DNA of 44,812 bases, taken from positions 1-44,812 of IMG/VR virus record IMGVR_UViG_3300032893_000099. One strand, 5' to 3'. The stretch comes from a virus. Positions 2,369 to 25,484 of this stretch are shown one piece after another. The first letter of the stretch is position 1. Every line of letters begins with the position of its first letter. A program made the position numbers and the translations under genes. A model generated the notes under the pieces. That model was not told the origin of the DNA, did no database searches, and worked only from the letters and a program-made list of their open reading frames with translations.

Positions 2369-2826
2369 ACGGCCACATCCTGATATTGTGCGGGGAGTTT
2401 GTCGGCAAAAGCCATGTCCCATTTGACGTACCAGGAATCTGGCTTTGACGGCGGGTGCGTGGCCTGCCATTCATCCGAGAGCCACCAATCCAAAAATGCG
2501 CTGATGGTCTGCTGCTTGTCGCGGGCCTTACGCCAGGCGTATTCCACAAATTCCTGCCACTCTTTCGTAACTGGGCTGATGCGGGTGCGCTTGTTGATTT
2601 CTGCCGCGATAGCCTGTATCTGGTCGCTTTTCGCCTGCCCGGTATTTATCGCCTTGTGCAAAGACGCGAGGATCTCGTCTTTTGTGCGGCGCGGCTCCGG
2701 GCTTTCGTAAAACTTTTTGAACGCCTCGCACAGTTTGATTGTCAGTTCGAGATTATCAACCCCATAAACTGACAGTATGCCGTCTATTAGTAGTCGTAAC
2801 GTTCTTGAGTCTGTTGGTTTTGTCAT
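2365..2826 (-). CDS. Helicase-adjacent protein of unknown function, possible replication accessory
   Basis: A 153-aa soluble protein, mostly helical by composition, with a Trp-rich C-terminal third (EFVEYAW, FLDWWLSDEWQ, DSWYVKWDMAF). No motif identifies it. It lies directly before the DnaB-like helicase with an ATGA overlap, a position where many phages place a helicase loader or DnaD/DnaT-like protein. That role is inference from context only. The start at 2826 has a weak AAAGG about 10 bases upstream. Confidence 0.7.
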   Translation of the reverse strand: MTKPTDSRTLRLLIDGILSVYGVDNLELTIKLCEAFKKFYESPEPRRTKDEILASLHKAINTGQAKSDQIQAIAAEINKRTRISPVTKEWQEFVEYAWRKARDKQQTISAFLDWWLSDEWQATHPPSKPDSWYVKWDMAFADKLPAQYQDVAV

Positions 2827-3150
2827 CGTTTTTGACCTTTCTTTTGTAAAATGGCGGAATCATCCGCAGGGCGGCCTGCACGACTCATTGTCTAAAGACA
2901 TACCCGGTGAGGGAGTGAGTCGCCTACTTTGCGATATTCGGTCTACCCGGTTAGGGTTTCATACCGATCCCCGCCGTTATCTGTGTAGTCCGGGGATGGT
3001 CCTTGCGGACCTGTTTACCATTTCGGCAGTCGGTGTCTGAGCTGTAACGGTTGCGGGTGGTTTCGCCTGGGGCTTGCGCCTTTTTGTGCTGCTTTTATTG
3101 ATCCTCGCCACCCACCCGCGCCTGCGGCGAAGAATTGAATGATGCCAGTC
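2827..3150 (-). other. 324-bp interval without a convincing gene
   Basis: Between the primase stop and the helicase-adjacent gene no frame longer than about 45 codons is open on the minus strand. It holds the candidate 44-codon frame at 2977-3111 and a 21-codon frame (ATG near 2888) that ends in an ATGA overlap with the gene at 2826. Several short GC-rich inverted segments are present but no clear terminator. It could be a leader or a place where a gene has decayed. Confidence 0.5.
2977..3111 (-). CDS. Candidate small basic protein, 44 aa, GTG start
   Basis: A 44-codon frame on the operon strand starting with GTG. Its composition is strongly basic at the N-terminus (INKSSTKRRKPQAK), then Thr/Pro-rich. 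The upstream GTGGGTGG is a poor ribosome site and there is no ATGA coupling, so it is less certain than the other small genes. It is listed because it fills an otherwise long gap in a dense operon. No family recognised. Confidence 0.3.
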   Translation of the reverse strand: MARINKSSTKRRKPQAKPPATVTAQTPTAEMVNRSARTIPGLHR

Positions 3151-4146
3151 TTACACGTGCCTTGCTTGATCCAGCATTCCGAAAATGTCTTGCCTGTCCA
3201 TCTGCCCGGCGTTGAGCATATCATCAATCTTGCCGGCCAGGGTTATCAATCGTGCCCCTACGCTCGAGGCATAAACGCGCCAATCTTCTACCGCGCCGGG
3301 GTCGGGTATCAGCCATACGCCGTCATGGCCTTGCAACTTGTCCGCCACCGTGCGGAATGCTTCTTTGCCCGGTACGCCGATCACCTGCCATAGCGGTTTG
3401 TCAATCGTGAGCAGCGTCACGGCGGCTTTGATTTCGCCCTCCACCACAATCACCCGCTCTGCCCGGTCAATGGGTAGGTCCGGGTCAGAATAGAACGGCA
3501 GCGCGGGAAAGCCGGCGCGCTCGGGTCTGTATTTGTCGTGAGGATCTGTTGGGGACAACAGTCGGTGCCGGATGTTGAGCGGGTCCGTTTGGCCGGGGGT
3601 AAAAATGGGGATAGTCAGTGACGCGGAACGGGTAAACGTTGGGCAGGCCGGCGCATATCCGAAGCGCCAGAAGTTTTGCCAATCGTCCGGTATCCCCCTG
3701 GCCCGCCACAATGCGCGGGTATTTTCCGTGAGTGCATCATGATAGATGACCCAGCGGCGCGCCTCGCGTAGCTCTTCCAGCGCCTTTTGCGCCTGGTTGA
3801 TTTTCTCTTGCAATTCCCGCTCAACCTGTGCGGCGCGTTCTGCCGCTCTGCGCTGGCGTTCCTGTGGGTCGATCTGCTCCCCGCCGATGTTCTTTGCAAC
3901 GTCCTGCATTGACCAGTTATTCAGCGCCCGGAGCAGGGCAATTCCATCATGACCATAGCGATTACACTCAACGCGGGTATGACACGACCAGGCCCGGCCA
4001 TTGTCGAAGATTTCAAAAGCGGCCTCATTGTCCCCGGCGTGAATGGGACAGCGTGAGCGTTTGCCGCTCTTGTCAAATTCGGCCCCGGCGCGTTCTGCCG
4101 TTTGTCGGATGTCAATCAGTGCGTTGAGTTCTGCCGCGTCAATCAT
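3151..4146 (-). CDS. DNA primase with CHC2-type zinc finger and TOPRIM-like domain
   Basis: A 331-aa protein. Residues about 25-75 form a CHC2-like zinc finger (C33-x2-H36, then C55 and C61, followed by GHDGIALLRA). A charged, probably coiled helix spans about 93-135. A TOPRIM-like region follows with VIVVEGEIKA (catalytic Glu near 236) and LIPDPGA (Asp near 282). This arrangement is typical of phage primases that prime DNA synthesis with a separate helicase. The ATG at 4146 has GGAGG/GAGG upstream and overlaps the previous gene by 8 bp. No polymerase gene is visible, so the primers are probably used by host polymerase. Confidence 0.85.
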   Translation of the reverse strand: MIDAAELNALIDIRQTAERAGAEFDKSGKRSRCPIHAGDNEAAFEIFDNGRAWSCHTRVECNRYGHDGIALLRALNNWSMQDVAKNIGGEQIDPQERQRRAAERAAQVERELQEKINQAQKALEELREARRWVIYHDALTENTRALWRARGIPDDWQNFWRFGYAPACPTFTRSASLTIPIFTPGQTDPLNIRHRLLSPTDPHDKYRPERAGFPALPFYSDPDLPIDRAERVIVVEGEIKAAVTLLTIDKPLWQVIGVPGKEAFRTVADKLQGHDGVWLIPDPGAVEDWRVYASSVGARLITLAGKIDDMLNAGQMDRQDIFGMLDQARHV

Positions 4147-14023: not shown

Positions 14024-14043
14024 GGATGTGGAGACAAAAAATC

Positions 14044-14742
14044 ATGGAATTCGAAAACTCAGCGGCACTCAATAAATACATGGCCGAGCGGCTAAATGGC
14101 CGGGCAATGCTGGCGTTTAGCTGCGGGAAAGACTCGATAGTGGCCTGGCTGACAATGCGGGAGTATTTTCCAGAGATTACGCCGTTTTACCTGTACCTGG
14201 TGCCGGACCTGGAATTTGTTGAGGAATCGCTCTCGTACTATGAGCAGTATTTTGACTGTCACATTACCCGGTTGCCCCACCCATCCATGTATCGCTGGAT
14301 ATACAATTACATGTGGCAACCGCCGTATGAGATTGAGACAATCCGCGATCTGAAACTGGTGCATTTTGAATATGATGATGTGATCGAGTTGGTATGGCAA
14401 GCGACCGGAAACAGCGGCGAGTATTTTCATGGGGTGGGAGTGCGGGCGGTGGACAGTATTGTGCGCTGGGCCGCAATCAAAAAGTATGGGCCTGTCAATG
14501 AAAAACAGCACAAATTTTTTCCGGTCTATGATTTCCGAAAACAGGATATGCTGGACTGCATCCAGCGGCACAACATCAAGCTGCCGGTGGATTATCGCAT
14601 GTTTGGCCGGTCATTCGATGGCATTGACCATCGCTTCCTCGCACCGATCAAAAAATATTACCCGCGTGATTATCAGCGGATAATAGAAATGGTGCCGCAG
14701 GCTGACATGGAATTGTACCGCTACGAGAAATGGAGCCGATAA
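14044..14742 (+). CDS. PAPS-reductase-like PP-loop protein
   Basis: A 232-aa protein with the PP-loop SCGKDSIVAW (about residues 26-35), followed by PDLEFVEESLSYYEQYF and a VGVRAVDSIVRWAAIKKYG segment as in the PAPS reductase / DndC-like superfamily. These enzymes bind ATP or adenylylated sulfate and use an activated adenylate. In phages they are often linked to nucleic-acid modification, though mostly untested. An earlier ATG at 14026 sits inside the promoter, so 14044 with GGAG upstream is chosen. It is coupled (TAATG) to the next gene. Confidence 0.8.
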   Translation: MEFENSAALNKYMAERLNGRAMLAFSCGKDSIVAWLTMREYFPEITPFYLYLVPDLEFVEESLSYYEQYFDCHITRLPHPSMYRWIYNYMWQPPYEIETIRDLKLVHFEYDDVIELVWQATGNSGEYFHGVGVRAVDSIVRWAAIKKYGPVNEKQHKFFPVYDFRKQDMLDCIQRHNIKLPVDYRMFGRSFDGIDHRFLAPIKKYYPRDYQRIIEMVPQADMELYRYEKWSR

Positions 14743-15257: not shown

Positions 15258-15282
15258 ATAATTCATTCGTTGAATATAGGTG

Positions 15283-15288
15283 TATAAT
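15283..15288 (+). promoter_or_regulatory. -10 box of a leaderless promoter for the terminase genes
   Basis: A consensus TATAAT lies six bases before the ATG at 15295, the same spacing as at 8836-8848. No good -35 is seen at 16-18 bases upstream, so it may need an activator or a phage-modified polymerase. The G-run GGGGGC between the box and ATG is not placed to serve as a ribosome site. Confidence 0.6.
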
Positions 15289-15294
15289 GGGGGC

Positions 15295-15726
15295 ATGGCA
15301 GATGAAAAGACTGCTAACAGTAGCAAATCACTAAATAAATCGAAGCGCAAAGCCCCGCCGAAAGCTTGGAAGCCGGGGCAGTCTGGCAATCCGAAGGGCC
15401 GGCCGGCGGAGGGGGAGAGCTGGGCTGCGATCATCAAAGAAATCAGCGCCATGTCTGCCGATGAACTGTTCGAGATTGTCGGCAAAACGAACGGGCGTAT
15501 CAATGACCTGGGGGCCGCGTACAAGCAAATGCCGCCGGGCGTTGCCATGAAAAAGCTGGTAGTGGCGCGTATCCTGGCGGCGCTGATGTTCGAGCCGTCT
15601 CATGGTCTATGGCATGAGTTGATGGACCGCGCAGAGGGCACCGTCAAGAGCCAAATGGACATCACCAGCGACGGGAAGGCAGTAACGCTAACTGTCGTAT
15701 ACCAGGAAAAGAAGCCGAATGCCTGA
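15295..15726 (+). CDS. DUF5681-type protein, probable small terminase subunit
   Basis: A 143-aa protein. The basic N-terminus contains KPGQSGNPKGRP (about residues 30-41), the hallmark of DUF5681, which is commonly found directly before TerL in phages. A helical region and a C-terminal strand (AVTLTVVYQEK) follow. The gene overlaps TerL by 8 bp. Small terminases recognise packaging sites and regulate TerL; that role is inferred from domain and position. The start at 15295 is preferred over a GTG at 15280 that lies within the promoter. Confidence 0.8.
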   Translation: MADEKTANSSKSLNKSKRKAPPKAWKPGQSGNPKGRPAEGESWAAIIKEISAMSADELFEIVGKTNGRINDLGAAYKQMPPGVAMKKLVVARILAALMFEPSHGLWHELMDRAEGTVKSQMDITSDGKAVTLTVVYQEKKPNA

Positions 15727-17041
15727 GTATACGATCACCCTGCCTACTCCGCACGAAAAGCAGCGCGCCTTCATCGACAGTCCGGCCAAGCGCAAGGTAA
15801 TCAGGGCCGGTCGCCGTGGTGGCAAGACCGTAGGCGTAGCAATCTACGCAGTAAAGCAATTCCTGGCAGGTCGGCGGGTACTCTACGCAGCGCCTACGGC
15901 AGAGCAGATCGACCGATTTTGGACCGAAGTATGCCGGGCGCTTGAGCAACCGATTGACGGGGGAGTGTTCGAGAAAAACGAGACGAAGCACATCATAGAG
16001 TTACCGGGAACAGAGCAGCGCATCAGGGCAAAGACCGCATGGAACGCAGATACCCTTCGTGGTGACTATGCCGATGAATTGATCCTTGATGAATACCAGC
16101 TCATGAACGAGGAAGCGTGGTCAGTCGTTGGCGCGCCTATGTTATTGGACAATAACGGCAACGCGACGTTTATTTATACCCCACCGTCGCTGCACAGCCG
16201 CAGCGCGTCGAAGGCCGATGACCCACAGCACGCCGCAAAGCTGTTTCAGAAAGCAGCGCAGGATACATCCGGGCGCTGGGCCGTGTTTCACTTTTCGAGC
16301 CACGAAAACCCGTATATCAGCGCCGAAGCCCTGGCCGACATATCGAAAGACATGAGCGCATTAGCGGTGCGGCAAGAGATCAACGCAGAGGATATTGACG
16401 AAGCGCCGGGCGCGCTGTGGCACAGGCGCAAGACACTGGTAGGCACGCAGTTTGTACTTGGCATCGAAGATAACCGGGTGGACATTGCGCCTGAACTTAT
16501 CCGCGTTGTTGTTGGCGTGGACCCGTCCGGGTCATCGAAAGGCGACGCTTGCGGTATAATAGGCGCAGGTATTGACATCCGCCGTCATCATTACACATTG
16601 AAAGACGCCAGCGTACAAGGTAGCCCGAATGTATGGGCGCAAGCGGCATGCGAGTTGTATCATAAACTCAAAGCTGACTGTATGGTGGCTGAAAAGAATT
16701 ATGGTGGCGAGATGGTAGAGACGGTAATCAAAGGCGTCGATCCTACCGTCAACGTCAAGTTAGTTACGGCCACGCGCGGCAAGGCAATCCGGGCAGAGCC
16801 TATATCGGCGCTGACAGAACAAGGCCGGGACCACATCGTCGGTGCATTGGCAGAGCTTGAAGATGAGTTATGCTTATGGCTGCCAGGCGACGCAAGCCCC
16901 AACCGGCTGGATGCGAAAGTGTGGGCTGACACGGAATTGAGCAATTCGGCCCCGCCATTACCGAACAACCAACCGGGACAGCGCAGCAAGTGGCTTGACG
17001 GCAGCGAGAACGAGGCCGAAGGGCCACGATGGAAATACTAA
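15719..17041 (+). CDS. terL: Terminase large subunit
   Basis: A 440-aa packaging ATPase/nuclease. Walker A is RAGRRGGKT (residues 29-37), Walker B with catalytic Glu is LILDE (121-125), and an SFIII-like ATPase coupling segment FIYTPPS follows. The RNaseH-like nuclease has VGVDPSG (D268), AEKNYGGEM (E325) and a late Asp (D398, NRLDAK). All catalytic elements are present and the length is normal. The type of packaging (headful or cos) cannot be assigned by eye, but the assembly's circularity favours permuted headful genomes or cohesive ends joined by read overlap. Confidence 0.95.
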   Translation: MPEYTITLPTPHEKQRAFIDSPAKRKVIRAGRRGGKTVGVAIYAVKQFLAGRRVLYAAPTAEQIDRFWTEVCRALEQPIDGGVFEKNETKHIIELPGTEQRIRAKTAWNADTLRGDYADELILDEYQLMNEEAWSVVGAPMLLDNNGNATFIYTPPSLHSRSASKADDPQHAAKLFQKAAQDTSGRWAVFHFSSHENPYISAEALADISKDMSALAVRQEINAEDIDEAPGALWHRRKTLVGTQFVLGIEDNRVDIAPELIRVVVGVDPSGSSKGDACGIIGAGIDIRRHHYTLKDASVQGSPNVWAQAACELYHKLKADCMVAEKNYGGEMVETVIKGVDPTVNVKLVTATRGKAIRAEPISALTEQGRDHIVGALAELEDELCLWLPGDASPNRLDAKVWADTELSNSAPPLPNNQPGQRSKWLDGSENEAEGPRWKY

Positions 17042-17065: not shown

Positions 17066-18697
17066 ATGAGCAAGCGAACACGGCACGGTAACAGCAGCAA
17101 CTATGCGGCACAGAAAGCGCCCACGCCAACAGCACCAGACCTTTTGCCTGGGCAGATAGTCACGCCCCCGGCGGGCATCCTGGGCGGCGATGAGCTGACG
17201 AAGAACGCAGCGCAGCCGCCTGACCTTGAGGTCGGCGTTACTGGCCTGGCTCAATTCAGCGGGCTTATCTTTCAAGAGCCGCTTGTTGAGCTACGCGGGC
17301 GCGAGGCATACAAACGCTACAACGAAATGCGGCTAAACTCGCCCATTATCGGCGCGATGCTGCTCAGTATCGAAAACCCCCTGCGCTCAACGTCTTGGAA
17401 CTTTGCCAGCGATACGGACAATGATCCGCGCCTTGACTTGCTCGAAGCGGCCCGCGCCAACCTGGATCATAGCTGGAATGACTTTATCAGCGAAGCACTG
17501 ACTATGCTCCCGTTTGGCTTCTCGATCTTCGAAATGATATACGAGCAGGTAGACGGTCAAATGCTTTGGCGCAGCTTCTCGCCACGCGGGCAGGATACGG
17601 TGTATCGCTGGCTGTACGAGGAATTGCGGAACTCGCCAGATGACCCCAATCCCAAGCCGCGCCTACGGGGCTTCGTGCAGCTTGCCCCGCCGCACTACCA
17701 CCCGACCGCTATCCCGATTGAGCGGTTGCTGATATTCCGTATGCGCACAGAGCGCGACAATCCCGAAGGCCGCTCGATGTTGCGTACCGCCTGGGTGCCG
17801 TATTACTACATCAAGCATTTGCAGCAAATTGAGGCGATCGGTATCGAGCGGGATTTGGCCGGGTTGCCAGTGATTACGCTTCCACCAGGCGCCAGCACGG
17901 GCGGCACAGACACGGACGATGCGAAAGCCGCAAAGATCGTGCGCAACATCCGCAACGACGAACAGGCCGGGATTGTCAAGCCGGATGGCTGGGTGCTTGA
18001 GCTGCTATCATCTGGCGGCTCACGCCAGATCGATACCGACAAGATCATCAACCGCTACGAAAAGCGCATCCTGACCAGCGCCCTGGCTCAATTCCTTATG
18101 CTTGGACAGGATGGCGTCGGCTCACTTGCGCTCTCGAAAGACCAGACAGATTTCTTTACGATGTCCGTCAATGCCGTTGCTGACATCATTGCAGAAGTGT
18201 TCACCAAGACCGCAATCAAGCATCTTATGGAACTCAACGGCTACGACGCCGAAGGCCTGCGCCTTGAGCATACACCCGCACAGGGCGAGACCGGCGTATC
18301 TGTTGCGGCGGACTTCATGCAGAAAGTCGGCCCCTACATCACCTTTGGGCCGGAGGATGAAGTTTGGTTGCGGCAGATTATCAACATGCCAGAGAAAGAC
18401 GTGGAAACCATCCAGGCCGAAGCCGAAGCGAAACAGGCCGCCGCTGCGGCGGCAGCGCAGGCCATCCAAGCACAGAAGATGCAGCAAGGCCAGCAGCAGC
18501 AGGAGCAGCAACTTGGGCAGACCGGCGAGGCCATCGTACAGGACAAAGGCAAGATGGCCGCAGAATGGTACGCGGCCAACGCGCCCGACATCAAGAAGCG
18601 CCAGAAGCTAGAGCGAGAATGGAATAAGGCCGTTCGTGATTACTTCGAGGCGCAGAAAAAGCGCATTCTGAAAGCGGCAAAGGAAATCGGGCGCTAA
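17066..18697 (+). CDS. Portal protein, Mu gp29-like (DUF935)
   Basis: A 543-aa protein with the layout of Mu-type portals: an N-terminal part, NSPIIGAMLLSIENPLRSTS, then FGFSIFEMIYE, an IPIERLLIFR segment, and LSSGG...DTDKIINRYEKRI. The C-terminal ~130 residues are Gln/Ala/Glu-rich and helical (residues ~450-490 very Gln-rich). It forms the dodecameric ring through which DNA passes. It lies between TerL and the minor head gene, the standard position. GGAAC precedes the ATG. Confidence 0.9.
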   Translation: MSKRTRHGNSSNYAAQKAPTPTAPDLLPGQIVTPPAGILGGDELTKNAAQPPDLEVGVTGLAQFSGLIFQEPLVELRGREAYKRYNEMRLNSPIIGAMLLSIENPLRSTSWNFASDTDNDPRLDLLEAARANLDHSWNDFISEALTMLPFGFSIFEMIYEQVDGQMLWRSFSPRGQDTVYRWLYEELRNSPDDPNPKPRLRGFVQLAPPHYHPTAIPIERLLIFRMRTERDNPEGRSMLRTAWVPYYYIKHLQQIEAIGIERDLAGLPVITLPPGASTGGTDTDDAKAAKIVRNIRNDEQAGIVKPDGWVLELLSSGGSRQIDTDKIINRYEKRILTSALAQFLMLGQDGVGSLALSKDQTDFFTMSVNAVADIIAEVFTKTAIKHLMELNGYDAEGLRLEHTPAQGETGVSVAADFMQKVGPYITFGPEDEVWLRQIINMPEKDVETIQAEAEAKQAAAAAAAQAIQAQKMQQGQQQQEQQLGQTGEAIVQDKGKMAAEWYAANAPDIKKRQKLEREWNKAVRDYFEAQKKRILKAAKEIGR

Positions 18698-18698
18698 A

Positions 18699-19295
18699 AT
18701 GACAGACCCGCGCCAGCTCCAGTTTTGGGACGATGAAGAGGATGAACTTTGGGACAGCCTGCAAGACCTGCTCATACAGACCTACATGAGCGGGATTGAA
18801 GGCGGCACTGATACGTTGCCCACCAATGTGCAGCCGTTGGTTGACTATAACCACGTCAACCAGGCCGCGCTCAATTTCTCGCACTCTTACCGCTACCAGT
18901 GGATCAAAGGCATCACCGAGACCAGCCGAACGCAGGTGCAGCAGGCTATTGCCGATTGGATGCGGGAAGGTACGCCGCTCTCGGCGCTTGAGGCGAAGCT
19001 GGGGCCTATCTTTGGCGACGCCCGCGCCGCGATGATCGCGGCAACTGAAGTCACCCGTGTATACTCGCAGGCCAATATGGACGCCTGGGAAAGCACCGGG
19101 ATGGTAGACAGCAGCACGTGGATGACGGCAGAGGATGACCTGGTTTGCCCCATCTGTGGCGAGTTGGATGGCACAGATGTGGGCCTGGGCGACCGTGACG
19201 CGGCCCCGCCAGCGCATGTAAATTGTCGCTGTTACTTGCAGCCGCATGTCAGCGAAGAGATGGTACACAACAAGCTATTGGAGATATTCTCATAA
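18699..19295 (+). CDS. Minor head protein, Mu gpF/SPP1 gp7-like
   Basis: A 198-aa protein with the signature of the phage Mu F family: MIAATEVTRVYSQANMDAW, then WMTAEDDLVCPICGELDG and PPAHVNCRCYL. It is shorter than many relatives, keeping mainly the C-terminal domain. The Cys/His set (C-x2-C plus H-x2-C-x-C) is complete. The protein is expected to associate with portal and incoming DNA. It is coupled to the next gene by TAATG. Confidence 0.9.
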   Translation: MTDPRQLQFWDDEEDELWDSLQDLLIQTYMSGIEGGTDTLPTNVQPLVDYNHVNQAALNFSHSYRYQWIKGITETSRTQVQQAIADWMREGTPLSALEAKLGPIFGDARAAMIAATEVTRVYSQANMDAWESTGMVDSSTWMTAEDDLVCPICGELDGTDVGLGDRDAAPPAHVNCRCYLQPHVSEEMVHNKLLEIFS

Positions 19296-19741
19296 TGCCC
19301 ATCGAAGTGCGCGGCCTCAACGAAGTCATAGCAAAGATGCAAGCCTACCCGGAGAAGCTCCAGGCAGGCATGAAGACCGCCATGGACGCTGCGCTGCTGG
19401 TGGTGTGGGAGAACGTCCCGCCGTACCCGCCGCAACCGTCTGGTGTGTCGTATCGTCGCACGGGCACGCTTGGGCGCAGCTTGGGCAGCGGCGAAGGTGG
19501 CGGCAAGTCGGGCGGCGAGCCGGAGATATACGAGGTCCGCGCCCTGGGTGCCGCAAGTTATGAGGGGCGCTTTGGCACAAATCTTGAGTATGCCCGGTAC
19601 GTCATTGGCGACGATGACCAGAATATCCACCTGGGCTACTGGTGGCAGATGAAGGATGTAGCTGCGAGAGCCACAGAGAAAGTGCAACGGGTCTTTGCGG
19701 ACCTGGGCCGCGTGATGGCCGATTGGCTGGACAGTCAGTAG
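19295..19741 (+). CDS. HK97 gp10-like / virion morphogenesis protein
   Basis: A 148-aa protein beginning MPIEVRGLNEVIAKMQAYPE, an N-terminus typical of HK97 gp10-like neck or tail-completion proteins, with a Tyr/Pro-rich segment and a C-terminal helix. The frame is open back to 19223, but the ATG at 19295 overlaps the previous stop and is chosen. It probably acts at the head-tail interface. Confidence 0.7.
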   Translation: MPIEVRGLNEVIAKMQAYPEKLQAGMKTAMDAALLVVWENVPPYPPQPSGVSYRRTGTLGRSLGSGEGGGKSGGEPEIYEVRALGAASYEGRFGTNLEYARYVIGDDDQNIHLGYWWQMKDVAARATEKVQRVFADLGRVMADWLDSQ

Positions 19742-19761: not shown

Positions 19762-19962
19762 ATGACAGTAGCAATCGTGAAAGACGAAGCTGAAACAAAA
19801 CTGCGCATCCGCGACTATCGCTGCAAATGCGGGCGGCTACAGTTCCGCATCCGCTACCCGCTGGTGCCTGGGCTGTATGTCGAGGTGCGCTGTCCGAAGT
19901 GCGGATACATGAATGTTTTGACGACCTACGAAGGAGAGCAACACAATGACCCTATCTCTTAG
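19762..19962 (+). CDS. Com-like zinc-ribbon protein
   Basis: A 66-aa protein with C21-x-C23 and C44-x2-C47 in the context YRCKCGRLQF ... EVRCPKCGYMN, closely resembling the Com family of phage Mu, where Com is a zinc-binding mRNA-binding activator of mom translation. The first knuckle is C-x-C instead of C-x2-C. Its 3' end overlaps the ferritin start by 17 bp, mirroring the overlap of com with mom. By analogy it may control ferritin translation; this is inference. Confidence 0.75.
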   Translation: MTVAIVKDEAETKLRIRDYRCKCGRLQFRIRYPLVPGLYVEVRCPKCGYMNVLTTYEGEQHNDPIS

Positions 19963-20434
19963 TATGCACCAGGCGCTACAGGCGCAGATGACCAAAGAAC
20001 GCCAGAACGCCGCGATCTATGACGCCGCAGACTTTGCACTGCGGTATATCAGTTGGCCCGGATCCGCTCATTACATGCACGAAAGCGCGGAGGAAGAGCG
20101 AGAACACGCCAAGAAGTTTGGCAAGTACTTGATTGCCCGAGGCGTGGAGCCGGAAGCGCAGGCGCTTGCAGACGTTGCGGCTCCGTCCGGCGCGCCGCTG
20201 GGCGAATACTTTTCACTGGCATTGAAAACTGAGCAGGACACCACAGCGGCTATCAATGCACTGTATGCAATGGCCGACGAAGAGAATGACCCGCAGACCT
20301 GCGCATTCTTGCAATGGTTCTTGCGCGAACAGACCAAGAGCGAGGACGAGTTACAAGGCATACTCAAGCAGATCAGCCGCACGGATGAGAGCGACCTGCC
20401 GACGCTGGATAAGCGGTTCGGAAAGATGGAATAG
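19946..20434 (+). CDS. Ferritin (non-haem, FtnA-like)
   Basis: A 162-aa four-helix protein of ferritin length. Compared with E. coli FtnA, the di-iron residues align as E18, Y25, E51, H54, E96 and Q129, and AFLQWFLREQ matches the FLQWYVSEQ helix. The position of FtnA Glu130 appears to be Ser132 with Glu133 next to it, so one site may be altered. Predicted function is iron oxidation and storage in a 24-mer cage. AAGGAG lies 8 bases before the ATG, inside the com-like gene. It sits within the head-gene cluster, far from any metabolic gene, so it may be a virion or late-infection protein. Confidence 0.85.
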   Translation: MTLSLSMHQALQAQMTKERQNAAIYDAADFALRYISWPGSAHYMHESAEEEREHAKKFGKYLIARGVEPEAQALADVAAPSGAPLGEYFSLALKTEQDTTAAINALYAMADEENDPQTCAFLQWFLREQTKSEDELQGILKQISRTDESDLPTLDKRFGKME

Positions 20435-20436
20435 GC

Positions 20437-20465
20437 TTGACATCTGCCTGAATTTGAAGTAGGAT
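20437..20465 (+). promoter_or_regulatory. Near-consensus sigma70 promoter after ferritin
   Basis: TTGACA (20437-20442), 17-base spacer, TAGGAT (20460-20465). Transcription would start near 20472. A perfect terminator follows about 40 bases later, before the next gene. Confidence 0.75.
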
Positions 20466-20471
20466 AATAGA

Positions 20472-20540
20472 GCAAGAACGCCTCCGAGCGTCGCAGCAAT
20501 AGAGCTTCTCAGAGAGCCGCAGAAACGCGGCTCTTTTTGT
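20472..20540 (+). ncRNA. Short terminated transcript (sRNA or attenuated leader)
   Basis: Between the promoter at 20437-20465 and the terminator at 20513-20543 lies a ~65-nt RNA with no start codon followed by a useful frame. It could be an independent small RNA or a leader whose readthrough controls the protease/scaffold and capsid genes. The 5' part is weakly structured. Confidence 0.5.
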
Positions 20541-20543
20541 TTT
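20513..20543 (+). terminator. Intrinsic terminator before the protease/scaffold gene
   Basis: AGAGCCGC (20513-20520) pairs with GCGGCTCT (20527-20534), loop AGAAAC, followed by TTTTGTTTT. The next gene's GGAG lies just downstream, so the terminator sits in its leader. Confidence 0.8.
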
Positions 20544-20553
20544 CGGAGAACCT

Positions 20554-21816
20554 ATGGCAACGAAGAAAGAAGCGGACGGCGAGCACTCGGCAGGCGACTA
20601 CCTGGTAGTGGATGATCCTGAAAGCCCCTCTACCTGGCATTTGCGCGTCAAGTCGGGGGGCAAGCCGGACCATACCTTGATGGGTGCGGCCTGGGCTGCA
20701 TTGCATGGGGGCTACCGCGGCAACAAATACGAGGGGCCGAACAAATCCGCTGCAATCGACAAACTCAAGAAGATGTACTCATCCGAGAACATGGACACGC
20801 CGGGACAGAACATGGAAGCCCAGCGCGTGTTCGATGCACTCGTAGCGACGAAGCCTGGCGACCCTTACCGCCTGTTGCCATTCGGCCAGATCAAGCGCGC
20901 CAATGGTGGACCGGCCCGCGAGTTTACCCCCGCCATGGCAGCCGCCTTCAAACTGCCCCACTTCCAGCCCCCCATGAAACTTGGCAGCCATGACGACACC
21001 ACACCGGCCGGCGGGCACATCAAGGCGCTCGAAGTCCGCGCCGATGGGCTGTACGCTATCCCCGAACTTACCGAAAAGGGCGCGAAAGCCTGGGCGGATG
21101 GCGATTACAAGTACCACAGCCCCGAGATTATCTGGCCGGGCGGCGGGATTGAAGATGCAACCACGGGCGAGTTTATTCCAGGCCCGCTTATTGTCGGAGA
21201 TGCACTCTTGCACACCCCGGCGTTGGGCGAAGCGACGGCCCTCTACACGTCGCAAGTGAAACAAGGAGAACCAATGACAGCAGAAACCGTACAGGTCGAG
21301 AAAGGCGTATGGGATCAGCTTGCGGCGTTGTTTGGTAAGCAGCCCGATAAGCCCGAACCGCAGATTCCAGACGAGTACAAGGCGGCTATGAAGGAGCGTG
21401 ACGAACTCAAGGCGCTCCAGGCGAAGGCCGAAGCCGACAAGCTGCACGCTGAGACCGTCACGACCCTGACCGCCGAACTCAAGAAGCCCGAGCGGTTCAG
21501 CGCGGCATACAAAGACGACAAGGCCGCGACCGAAGCCGCCGAGCAGTTGGCAGCCATGCCGCAGCCTCAGCGCGATTGGGTCATGCAGCAATTGGCCGCG
21601 ATGTCCAAACGCATCGACTACAGCAAGCTGACTACTGAGATTGGCAGCGGCGGAACCGGCGTCGAGAGTGACCCGCGCAAGGCGTTTGCCGGCGCAGTCG
21701 AGGCCAAGATGAAGGCCGCCAAAGTCGACTACATGTCGGCTTACAACCTCGTGAAGACCGAAGCCCCGGAACTGTTTGAGGCTTATGCCGCATTCCGGCC
21801 CGGCAAGGAGAAATAA
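20554..21816 (+). CDS. Head maturation protease/scaffold, Mu gpI-like
   Basis: A 420-aa protein. The N-terminal ~235 residues resemble Mu-type head proteases: FTPAMAAAFKLPHFQPPMKLGSH is followed by HIKALEVRADGLYAIPELTEKG, KYHSPEI and GDALLHTPAL. The C-terminal ~180 residues are Glu/Lys/Ala-rich and coiled (scaffold-like). Catalytic residues are not assigned with certainty; H and S residues of KYHSPEI are candidates. GGAG lies 6 bases before the ATG. The layout matches Mu I with nested scaffold Z. Confidence 0.8.
   Translation: MATKKEADGEHSAGDYLVVDDPESPSTWHLRVKSGGKPDHTLMGAAWAALHGGYRGNKYEGPNKSAAIDKLKKMYSSENMDTPGQNMEAQRVFDALVATKPGDPYRLLPFGQIKRANGGPAREFTPAMAAAFKLPHFQPPMKLGSHDDTTPAGGHIKALEVRADGLYAIPELTEKGAKAWADGDYKYHSPEIIWPGGGIEDATTGEFIPGPLIVGDALLHTPALGEATALYTSQVKQGEPMTAETVQVEKGVWDQLAALFGKQPDKPEPQIPDEYKAAMKERDELKALQAKAEADKLHAETVTTLTAELKKPERFSAAYKDDKAATEAAEQLAAMPQPQRDWVMQQLAAMSKRIDYSKLTTEIGSGGTGVESDPRKAFAGAVEAKMKAAKVDYMSAYNLVKTEAPELFEAYAAFRPGKEK
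21274..21816 (+). CDS. Nested scaffold protein from internal start (predicted)
   Basis: AAGGAG stands 6 bases before an in-frame ATG at 21274 (Met241 of the long product, MTAETVQVEKG), exactly where the protease-like part ends and the coiled part begins. This would yield a 180-aa scaffold, as with Mu I/Z and lambda C/Nu3. Known from those systems; here inferred from the ribosome site and domain boundary. Confidence 0.6.
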   Translation: MTAETVQVEKGVWDQLAALFGKQPDKPEPQIPDEYKAAMKERDELKALQAKAEADKLHAETVTTLTAELKKPERFSAAYKDDKAATEAAEQLAAMPQPQRDWVMQQLAAMSKRIDYSKLTTEIGSGGTGVESDPRKAFAGAVEAKMKAAKVDYMSAYNLVKTEAPELFEAYAAFRPGKEK

Positions 21817-21818
21817 CT

Positions 21819-22217
21819 ATGGCACAAGCATTCACCACCCGTTACGATACCATCCCCGGCCTGACCGCAGCCGCCGACCTGTCCACCACTGGGCAGTTCT
21901 TGGCCGTCAAGTTGCTCTCCACCGCCGGGACGATCAATCTGCTTGCAACCAGCACGGCCACTGAGACCGTGGTTGGCTTGCTCCAGAACAACCCCAAATC
22001 CGGCGACGCCGCCGAAGTCGCATACCAGGGCATTGCAAAGGGTATTGCCGGGACTTCCACGATTGCGATTGGTTCCCTGTTGGCGTCCAACTCGACCAGT
22101 AAGCTGGTCAAGACCACCACAGACAATCAGAAGATCATCGGCATGTCACTCTCGAAGGCCTCGGCTATCGGCGATGTGATTTCCGTCCTGCTGATCCCCG
22201 GCAGCCTCCGGTATTAG
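21819..22217 (+). CDS. Capsid decoration protein, DUF2190-like
   Basis: A 132-aa beta-rich, Ser/Thr/Ala/Gly-rich protein with the style of capsid cement proteins (VVGLLQNNPKSGDAAEVAYQ, then GIAKGIAGTSTIAIG and a C-terminal VISVLLIPGSLRY). It lies immediately before the capsid gene. It probably trimerises on the capsid surface. Confidence 0.75.
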   Translation: MAQAFTTRYDTIPGLTAAADLSTTGQFLAVKLLSTAGTINLLATSTATETVVGLLQNNPKSGDAAEVAYQGIAKGIAGTSTIAIGSLLASNSTSKLVKTTTDNQKIIGMSLSKASAIGDVISVLLIPGSLRY

Positions 22218-22235: not shown

Positions 22236-23186
22236 ATGGCACAGCCGACTATCGGTAATGTCCAACAGATCGACCCGGTACTCACCAACCTGGCTATCGG
22301 GTATCAGCAAGCGCAGGACCGCTTCGTGGCCGCGAAGGTTTTTCCCTACGTGCCCGTTGACAAGGCCCGCGACACGTACTATGTCTTTGACAAGAAATAC
22401 TGGTTCACCGACTCCATGCAGCCCCGCACGCCGGGCGGCGACTTCGCCCGCAGTGGCTACAGCCTGTCAACCGGGACCGTTGTCACACTGCAATATGCGC
22501 TGGCGCACCAGATTCCCGACGAAGTTGTGGCGAATAGCCAGGTGCCTTTCAGCCTGGAAGAGGCCGGCACCCGCTGGCTGGCGCAGCAGTCCTTGATCCG
22601 CAAGGAACGCGCCTTCTCGACTGACTTCATGGCGATTTCGGTCTGGGGCACGGATGACAACAACAGCGCGACCGACTGGAACAATTACACCGCCGGCGAT
22701 CCTGTGACCAATGTCCTGACCGCCCGCCGCACCATCAGCAACAACACCGGCATCGATGGTAACTCCATGGTCCTGGGCTATTTCGTTCACCAAGGCCTCA
22801 TGAACCATCCCGACATCATCGACCGCGTGAAGTTCGTCCAGATGGCAACCGCCGCGAATGTCGAGAGCGCCATGGCTGCGTTGTTCGGCCTGACGAACTA
22901 TTGGGTGGGCAAGGCCAGCTACAACAGCGCCAACGAAGGCCAGACCTTTAGCGGCTCCGGCATCATCGGCAACGATGCGCTGGTATGCGCCGTGACTGGC
23001 AACCCCGGCATCTTCGAGGCCTCGGCTGGCTACAGCTTCATGTGGCAGCCCGGCGGCGGACAGGGCACGATTGCCCGTTACCGCGACGACCACATCCGCA
23101 GCGACGTTTTGCAGTCGTTCGAGCAGTGGGATCAGAAAGCAGTTGCAACGGACCTGGGCTACTTCTTCCACACCATCGTTGCATAA
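22236..23186 (+). CDS. Major capsid protein
   Basis: A 316-aa protein located after protease/scaffold and decoration genes. It begins MAQPTIGNVQQIDPVLTNLA and contains FVAAKVFPYVPVDKARDTYY, a segment typical of HK97-fold capsids of Mu/related lineages, and a Trp-rich C-terminal part. Length fits an HK97-fold subunit without a delta domain. It is preceded by a GAAAGGA ribosome site. Confidence 0.85.
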   Translation: MAQPTIGNVQQIDPVLTNLAIGYQQAQDRFVAAKVFPYVPVDKARDTYYVFDKKYWFTDSMQPRTPGGDFARSGYSLSTGTVVTLQYALAHQIPDEVVANSQVPFSLEEAGTRWLAQQSLIRKERAFSTDFMAISVWGTDDNNSATDWNNYTAGDPVTNVLTARRTISNNTGIDGNSMVLGYFVHQGLMNHPDIIDRVKFVQMATAANVESAMAALFGLTNYWVGKASYNSANEGQTFSGSGIIGNDALVCAVTGNPGIFEASAGYSFMWQPGGGQGTIARYRDDHIRSDVLQSFEQWDQKAVATDLGYFFHTIVA

Positions 23187-23666: not shown

Positions 23667-23674
23667 CCTTATGG

Positions 23675-23721
23675 ATAAGGGGCCTGGGCCGCTTGCGCGC
23701 TCAGGTGACCCGGCCCCCTAT
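23675..23721 (+). other. GC-rich hairpin between head genes and glycosyltransferases
   Basis: ATAAGGGGCC (23675-23684) pairs with GGCCCCCTAT (23712-23721) with one mismatch; a T-rich TCTTCTC follows. It may be a weak terminator or a stability element separating capsid transcripts from the less needed downstream genes. An ATG at 23671 with an open frame runs through it but is not the preferred start. Confidence 0.45.
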
Positions 23722-23742
23722 CTTCTCAGCGCGGAGAAGAAA

Positions 23743-24645
23743 ATGAAACAACAGAAACGGTACGAAGGCGCTTGCTACGTTGGTGTGGTGGGCGCAGAGG
23801 ACGAAAACGGCGCATGTCGTGACAGTATCCAGAACATCAACCTAAGACCCGGTGATAGCACCCCCACCTGGGCGCGTGGCACAAAAGGATTCGAGACTCG
23901 CCAAATGCACCTTGACAAATTCATGGAAAGCCCGCAGTTTGATTTCTTGCTGCTGCTCGATCATGACATGCTCTTTCCGGTCCACACCCTCGAACGCCTG
24001 CGCTCGCATGGCCTGCCCTACGTGAGCGGCCTCTATATGCGCAGGCGTTTTGCGCCTATGGCCCCCATCTGGTTCGAGCCTGGTCCACGCAGCCAATTGC
24101 CGCTCAAGTGGTGGACAAGCGTACCCGAGCCGGACACACTGTACAAGATCGGCGGCTCCGGTTGGGGTTGCGTATTGCTACACCGCGATGTTGTAACAGC
24201 AGTGCGTGGGCAGCTCAAGGGTGAGAAAGAGGTTCTCGAGGACGATATGGACCTCTTCCCCTATGACCTGGCGCGGGTGATGGACGCTATCAAGAACCTG
24301 CAATCTCTGGCAACGGAAATGCCGGCACGCGGCATCATGGCCCCGGCATTGAAGCACTACACCGAAGTCCTGACAGAGGAAATCCGGCCCCTACGCGGCG
24401 AAAAGTCCAGCATCGTCGGTTCCGATGTGCGTTTCCCGTTCTACGCGAAACTAGCTGGCTTCGACCTGTACGGCGACAGCGGCGTCCAATGTGGGCACGA
24501 CCTGCATTATCCGCTTATGCCAGCCGACTTTGCGCAAAGTCCCGAAGAAGCCCGGCAGGAATTGCGGCGCTACACTGACCAGACGTACCGGCAGGACCGG
24601 CGCAAAGTGGCTGAGACATTGAAGGCCCTGCGAGGTGCGGCATGA
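23743..24645 (+). CDS. GT-A-type glycosyltransferase (probable)
   Basis: A 300-aa protein with a DxD-like motif in FLLLLDHDMLFP, followed by LRSHGLPYVSGLYMRRR and GGSGWGCVLLHRDV. This is the pattern of GT2-like phage glycosyltransferases. A later GDSGVQCGHDLHYP resembles the metal-binding His segment of such enzymes. GGAG is 6 bases before the ATG at 23743; the frame is open to 23671 through a hairpin. It likely glycosylates a virion protein or DNA base. ATGA overlap with the next glycosyltransferase. Confidence 0.75.
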   Translation: MKQQKRYEGACYVGVVGAEDENGACRDSIQNINLRPGDSTPTWARGTKGFETRQMHLDKFMESPQFDFLLLLDHDMLFPVHTLERLRSHGLPYVSGLYMRRRFAPMAPIWFEPGPRSQLPLKWWTSVPEPDTLYKIGGSGWGCVLLHRDVVTAVRGQLKGEKEVLEDDMDLFPYDLARVMDAIKNLQSLATEMPARGIMAPALKHYTEVLTEEIRPLRGEKSSIVGSDVRFPFYAKLAGFDLYGDSGVQCGHDLHYPLMPADFAQSPEEARQELRRYTDQTYRQDRRKVAETLKALRGAA

Positions 24646-25484
24646 ACATCCACATCGTGTCACCGTACCAGTCGGCAGCAATGCAGCGCATGACACAGCC
24701 GCTCGTAGATGGCCTGCCAGCGACGATCAGCGAGAAGGTAGACATGGCAGCGGATATCAATTACCACGTGCCCTATCACACGCTTGTTGGGCTAGAAGGA
24801 TGTCCGGGCAAGCACGTCATGCTGTACACGCACTGCAACCCGCCAGACAAGGCGCTTTTGTTGGATGCTTGCGAGCGAGCAGATGCAATCGTATGTATGA
24901 CCCATCGCGGCGCAAGCGAGTTGTATGAGCGCGATGTCAACTCGAACAAGATCAGCGTGATTTATCCGGGCGTCGCCTTCCCGTTCCGCCGTCGCAACAT
25001 CGGCGTGATTGGCTACGAACAGCCAAACGGGCGCAAGCGGGCACATATCCTGCTCGACATCCCGTGGCGGCTCAACCCTGACCTGTATCACTTTGTTCTG
25101 GTGGGCGACGGTTGGGAAGAATTGGCCGCAATGCTACAGAACGCGGGCACCAGCGCACAGCACATCAAGCACATCCAAGACCCGGAGTTGTTGAGCATCT
25201 ACAACCAGTTGGACTTGCTGCTGGTGACAGGATATGCCGAAGGCGGCCCCTTGCCAGTGCTCGAGGCGATGGCCTGCGGTGTGCCGATACTCTCGCCCCG
25301 CTTCGGCTTTGCGGCTGATTTCCTCGGCCCCGAGAGTATCTATGACTCATCTGAGGAAATGCTGCTCAAGCTGCGACAGCGTTTCTCAGAGACCGAACGG
25401 GCATTGAATATCACGATACCGCTAACTTGGGAAAACTATACCCAACAGCACGCGGAATTGTTCAAGAAGCTGATGGCGGCCTGA
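24642..25484 (+). CDS. GT-B-type glycosyltransferase (GT4-like)
   Basis: A 280-aa protein with the GT4 C-terminal signature EGGPLPVLEAMACGVPIL (E-x7-E near residues 205-213), preceded by YHFVLVGDGWEEL and a NQLDLLLVTGY strand. The N-terminal Rossmann part has VMLYTHCNPP and ISVIYPGV. It is shorter than typical GT4 enzymes (~350-400 aa). It is coupled by ATGA to the GT-A gene, so the two probably act on the same acceptor. Confidence 0.85.
   Translation: MNIHIVSPYQSAAMQRMTQPLVDGLPATISEKVDMAADINYHVPYHTLVGLEGCPGKHVMLYTHCNPPDKALLLDACERADAIVCMTHRGASELYERDVNSNKISVIYPGVAFPFRRRNIGVIGYEQPNGRKRAHILLDIPWRLNPDLYHFVLVGDGWEELAAMLQNAGTSAQHIKHIQDPELLSIYNQLDLLLVTGYAEGGPLPVLEAMACGVPILSPRFGFAADFLGPESIYDSSEEMLLKLRQRFSETERALNITIPLTWENYTQQHAELFKKLMAA

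Follow-up and report, generated by a model that had tools for sequence, protein, structure and literature searches.

A lineage of ferritins carried by tailed phages is tied to head gene clusters, and three of its members have lost the glutamates of the third iron site. One of these three is encoded in the window, that is, the whole stretch of 44,812 bp analysed here, an IMG/VR virus record, where the gene comes last in the block of portal and neck genes (Table 1).

Table 1. Features around the ferritin gene (window coordinates)
Feature	Position	Strand	Basis or remark
Terminase small subunit (putative)	15280..15726	+	Position upstream of terL, shared by homologues in L004 and L014
Terminase large subunit	15719..17041	+	PF17289, phrog_2
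Portal protein, Mu type	17066..18697	+	PF06074, phrog_113
MuF-like minor head protein	18699..19295	+	PF04233
Neck/tail-completion protein	19223..19741	+	phrog_5
Zinc-ribbon (Com-like) ORF, 66 aa	19762..19962	+	Overlaps ferritin start by 17 nt
Shine-Dalgarno-like GAAGGAG before ferritin ATG, within zinc-ribbon ORF	19926..19945	+	Sequence read directly
Ferritin, non-heme, EQTKSE motif, 162 aa	19946..20434	+	PF00210, AF2, Foldseek, ligand table
EQTKSE, codons 128-133; FtnA E126/Q127 kept, E129 to K131, E130 to S132	20327..20344	+	
Sigma70-like promoter TTGACA-17-TAGGAT	20437..20465	+	After ferritin stop
Intrinsic terminator-like hairpin in leader before protease gene	20511..20543	+	
Mu I-like head maturation protease/scaffold	20554..21816	+	PF10123, phrog_328
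Small head protein, annotated head scaffolding	21819..22217	+	phrog_673
Major capsid protein (MCP)	22236..23186	+	phrog_1005, E=3e-65

Identity and fold of the phage ferritin

The reading frame, which starts with ATG and ends with TAG, matches Pfam PF00210 with 101.8 bits (curated cut-off 24.5 bits; E=4.1e-29) over residues 9-145, covering profile positions 2-141 of 142. The best sequence match in the PDB is the ferritin of Thermotoga maritima (E=2.4e-18), and 234 distinct PDB sequences were matched in all; with the Pfam result, this means that the assignment is not a product of chance. The NCBIfam non-heme ferritin profile gave a weak match, below the equivalog cut-off.

The AlphaFold (AF2) model, obtained with 50 related sequences as input, has a pLDDT of 95.4 and a pTM of 0.90. 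Helices are predicted at residues 5-34, 38-64, 85-112, 116-145 and 148-158, forming a four-helix bundle with a short E helix, like FtnA-type cages and unlike Dps. In Foldseek the model reached TM scores of 0.95 to E. coli FtnA (1eum) and 0.96 to T. maritima ferritin (1z4a), with rmsd values of 1.1-1.3 on these structures, among 557 PDB matches at E<=0.001. Judged from sequence and model, the frame encodes a real ferritin of the classical 24-mer type (PF00210). The first-pass annotation, which had proposed a ferritin for the 162-aa product, is borne out by the Pfam match, the predicted fold and the ligand residues: the structural comparison that it suggested gave a ferritin fold close to that of FtnA, and the di-iron residues are there.

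As regards other ferritin classes, Dps proteins (mini-ferritins) are 12-mers, with subunits lacking the E helix and iron sites placed between subunits. This class was rejected for the window protein, which has the E helix and intrasubunit ligands, and whose best structural matches are maxi-ferritins. Bacterioferritins carry the haem ligand Met52, as well as His130 in the centre; they were rejected too, the window protein having Arg52 beside E51 and Ser132 at the 130 position, with neither the Met nor the His. The sequence EQ-x-K-S recalls the EQ-x-K-A/S motif of eukaryotic H-chain ferritins, but in the PDB sequence search neither these nor the bacterioferritins were nearer overall. E. coli FtnA and T. 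maritima ferritin (1z4a/1vlg) resemble the window protein in length and in the bundle with its E helix, and have in common with it sites A and B, except for Glu130, and the pair E126/Q127; they are 27-30% identical to it, and differ from it in the glutamates 129 and 130.

Ferroxidase centre and third iron site

The ligands were mapped in a multiple alignment including the window protein, four other viral ferritins, E. coli FtnA (in what we take to be its sequence) and 45 cellular ferritins. Residues E17, Y24, E49, E50, H53, E94, E126 and Q127 (FtnA numbering) are invariant in the 45 cellular and five viral sequences, and correspond to E18, Y25, E50, E51, H54, E96, E128 and Q129 of the window protein, in which all site A/B ferroxidase residues are present except FtnA Glu130. 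Since the other four viral ferritins are only 32-47% identical to that of the window, the conservation of these eight positions speaks for a ferroxidase site under selection. It also bears on the idea of a degenerated fold, kept for its shape as scaffold or decoy and devoid of iron chemistry. That three members have lost the site-C glutamates, and that helix D of the L005 ferritin (AF2 pLDDT 93.5) is broken by a 7-residue insertion, would fit such a decay; the other ferroxidase ligands, invariant in 50/50 aligned sequences while the rest goes down to 27-47% identity, make it very unlikely.

The earlier reading had matched E18, Y25, E51, H54, E96 and Q129 to FtnA, and the alignment places all six correctly; the FLQW reported as conserved sits at residues 121-124. 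The change noticed at the Glu130 position is also real, S132 being found there and in two other phages, while a second one, from Glu129 to K131, had been overlooked. Both positions are Glu in 45/45 cellular relatives. Among the viral proteins, K and S occur also in L005 and L093, E and G in L175, and E and E in L176. The cellular ferritins were gathered by patterns around E50/E51/H54 and residues 114-121, away from positions 129/130, so that the viral-cellular contrast at these positions is not built in.

Regarding site C of the prokaryotic FtnA type, the window protein keeps E49 and E126 and lacks the defining Glu129/Glu130. As the third-iron-site glutamates are replaced, a two-iron centre with altered turnover is predicted for the ferritins of the window, L005 and L093. 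Site C sets bacterial and archaeal ferritins apart from eukaryotic H-chain ferritin and bacterioferritin, which have a two-iron centre without it (PMC4653698), as predicted here. In site-C variants of E. coli FtnA the Fe:O2 ratio moves to about 2:1 and regeneration is faster, and the E130A change in a diatom ferritin makes mineralisation about 10 times faster (PMC4653698). Oxidation was, however, abolished in a Pyrococcus ferritin without site-C ligands (PMC4653698), and hence the iron-oxidising activity of the window ferritin is not guaranteed.

The slot in the head gene cluster and its occupants

The gene had been placed between neck and protease/scaffold genes by the first reading, in agreement with the present assignments (Table 1). 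The ferritin gene is flanked by these phage genes within a single block and overlaps one of its neighbours, which makes host DNA or an assembly chimera within the viral contig extremely improbable, even though many bacteria have ferritins and several ferritin-bearing 'phage' records proved to be bacterial contamination; an independent contig with the same gene order (L005) also contradicts it. The Com label of the zinc-ribbon frame has weak backing, PF13717 matching below its cut-off (E=0.0047); homologues of the frame precede the slot in L004 (50%), L005 (47%), L012 and L016.

The sigma70-like promoter begins three bases past the ferritin stop codon. Promoters with 10-11/12 matches are found at the same boundary in L004 (6329-6357), L007 (976-1004), L008 (2901), L016 (6312), L021 (4131) and L093 (6446), and across the phage family such a promoter is followed by a leader of 70-130 nt and then by the protease-MCP genes. 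A strong terminator-like hairpin lies in this leader region in the window, L005, L007, L008, L015, L016 and L093. In the window, the stretch 20437-20543 resembles a terminated leader RNA or a point of antitermination; the Rfam search of the window matched no RNA family. The ferritin gene ends the upstream gene block just before this recurrent promoter, which makes its place an insertion-tolerant one, and its position is what an optional cargo gene would also show.

In the slot comparison, made among MCP relatives of the window from IMG/VR, a ferritin was present in L005 and L006 (MCP 83%). L004, the relative with the most similar capsid protein (87%), is without it, about 30 bp separating its zinc-ribbon and protease frames, and in the other, more distant head-cluster relatives spanning the slot, no ferritin was found, the slot being empty or holding other genes. 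A PF00210 scan of 40 MCP-relative records matched the record of L005 only, the L006 fragment falling below detection. The ferritin gene is thus optional in this phage family. In L021, an NDP-sugar epimerase/dehydratase-like frame (2538-3953) lies between the neck and zinc-ribbon frames, as cargo near the same slot.

Searches were also made from the ferritin itself. The IMG/VR close-relative scan with the window ferritin alone found nothing, and FLxEQTKSE, searched as an exact motif with serine codons limited to TCN, was seen only in the L005/L006 contigs. Searches of IMG/VR by ferritin similarity alone yielded three new loci, L093, L175 and L176, and found L005 again; the PF00210 cut-off is far exceeded by the window protein and by each of the four other phage ferritins. 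The search of phage databases beside Com-like genes, recommended in the first-pass annotation, has thereby led to related ferritins at four other loci, all in head clusters and three of them between the portal/neck genes and the protease/head-gene block. In L093 (48%) the portal belongs to other PHROG families and the ferritin directly follows a frame in the neck position, while L175 (67 kb) has the order portal, ferritin, frame in the protease position, MCP. The fourth, L176, carries the ferritin upstream of a T4-type portal, in the order ferritin, zinc ribbon, portal, S77-like protease, MCP.

In a maximum-likelihood tree the ferritins of the window, L005, L093 and L175 group together (100/98) and away from the cellular ferritins sampled, although long viral branches mean that this grouping could be helped by long-branch attraction. 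The EQTKSE trio (window, L005, L093) is nested within the viral clade (100/95), and L176 is separate. Related ferritin genes at nearly the same place in very different viruses hint at a use during virus assembly. L093, L176 and L005/L006 are contigs of 5-18 kb, perhaps called viral because of their head genes (ascertainment bias), and the unbiased evidence for the recurrence comes mainly from the window and L175, in which the portal/neck-to-protease interval amounts to about 3% and about 1% of the record, respectively.

Phage ferritin as such is not new. The five viral ferritins all match phrog_16594, a family which carries no ferritin name, and two deposited proteins with ferritin fold, UniProt A0A8D9C9X5 (uncultured marine phage; TM 0.95 to the window model in BFVD) and A0A8S5Q7U4 (Siphoviridae ctrzs15), show 18-21% structure-aligned identity to the window protein. 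The fold search of BFVD also gave weak, suggestive matches to uncultured-phage proteins, namely prohead proteases and Dps-named entries of 500-700 aa (among the matches A0A6J7XDU5, A0A6J7WIS1 and A0A6J7WPK9); with E values of 0.01-0.05 they were not used, but they are possibly ferritin-like domains fused to head proteins. The tblastn search of 50,697 GenBank phage records had no hits other than unannotated contigs from the human gut and two Staphylococcus records, and no match to a genuine phage survived inspection, in which four gut contigs were covered. These four (MT838998, MT839617, MT836766 and MT838721; L002, L003, L187 and L188) encode blaR-like, thioredoxin reductase, aldolase, Hsp20 and response regulator genes, and were rejected as bacterial DNA; labelled 'Bacteriophage sp.' and obtained from human faeces, they look like host contamination of the phage collection. 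The two Staphylococcus records look like host DNA, and plasmid matches were set aside as ordinary bacterial ferritins.

The literature on phage ferritin yielded only the ferritin of giant viruses (NCLDV) and a claim for a Vi01-like phage. The former is encoded by eukaryotic viruses, is of the eukaryotic iron-storage type and has been proposed to manage iron during infection; the portion of that source consulted reports no link to head genes (PMC7136201). The latter, gp217 of the Vi01-like phage Sajous1, was detected by mass spectrometry of a virion preparation, claimed as a ferritin and linked with the Ferrojan horse idea (PMC10892097). It was rejected as a ferritin here: it has 117 aa, belongs to Pfam DUF5856, matches neither PF00210 nor the ferritin profile used here, and gives a BLASTP E of 13 and an hhalign probability of 0.1% against the window protein.

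As regards the host, the best prokaryote match of the window MCP lies in a Chloroflexota genome (45%), compared with 26% or less in a Bacteroidota sample; of the cellular copies of the head cluster found here, the one in this genome is the nearest, and no ferritin accompanies it. The MCP match and the bacterial-type promoters favour a bacterial host, possibly, and with low confidence, of the Chloroflexota, these promoters arguing against an archaeal host despite a terminase nearest to that of the Methanosarcina virus MetMV (62% identical). The L004 terminase is only 28% identical to that of the window, though the MCPs share 87%: the packaging gene has been exchanged. Just upstream of the packaging genes, a PAPS-reductase-like gene (phrog_2302, E=4e-26) occupies 14026-14742. 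Glycosyltransferase-type genes lie downstream of the MCP: the region 23671-25484 holds a frame without Pfam match and then a glycosyltransferase of family 1 (24642-25484), both conserved in nearly all relatives.

Proposed function in the infected cell

From its sequence and model, the window protein is probably a functional non-heme ferritin, made late together with head and neck proteins, which would oxidise and store iron in the infected cell. Subunits would assemble there into a 24-subunit cage, Fe(II) being oxidised at the two-iron centre by O2 or H2O2 and stored as Fe(III). Free iron would thus be removed during DNA packaging, while the cell dies, and Fenton damage to phage DNA and proteins would be limited. 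Without site C, about 2 Fe should be used per O2 and the centre should clear faster, which would make it a detoxifying, rather than slow-release, design. The gene was probably acquired into the permissive slot ending the portal-neck block, and was probably kept in those few lineages for which iron stress in the course of infection is important. The earlier interpretation is supported in part: the phage-encoded ferritin in a head cluster and the changed Glu130 are retained, the former being strengthened by the recurrence at head clusters, while the cage made in assembly or packaged, as it envisaged, stays conjectural.

Alternatively, the cage or its subunits could be a component of the virion or of its assembly, in or on the head or neck, where it would supply iron or shield the DNA inside the particle. 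In the window, L005/L006, L093 and L175 the ferritin lies in the interval from portal/neck to protease, and in the T4-type L176 its neighbours are portal, S77-like protease and MCP, even though L093, L175 and L176, with L005, were retrieved by ferritin similarity alone and the interval is so small a part of the long records. Such recurrence in diverged phages exceeds what random cargo would need, and could point to a structural role. Nevertheless, assembly can do without the gene, which is lacking in the closest relative and in most of the family; of the four other loci, three are short contigs likely called viral through their head genes, and the late promoter boundary is also a natural site for optional genes. 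We consider a virion component unlikely. Its stronger form, a phage-specific lineage selected in head operons, whose two-iron cage would be built into or packaged with the virion and carry or clear iron, appears quite unlikely.

A cargo gene of moron type, its ferritin protecting or feeding lysogens to the advantage of host and prophage rather than of the lytic cycle, is not a likely explanation either. Its variable presence at the operon boundary would agree with this, as would the Chloroflexota genome with the same head cluster, which indicates that related elements can be host-borne. Against it, no integrase was noted in the parts of the window examined, and the ferritin gene overlaps its upstream neighbour and lacks an obvious promoter for itself, since the good one lies behind it.

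Iron handling by phages has so far been discussed mainly through the Ferrojan horse idea, with iron in tail proteins, and through host regulation. A true ferritin recurring at the head clusters of tailed phages offers a concrete gene for testing phage iron management during assembly. Furthermore, a natural ferritin of prokaryote type without the usual site-C glutamates would be useful for studies of ferritin mechanism.
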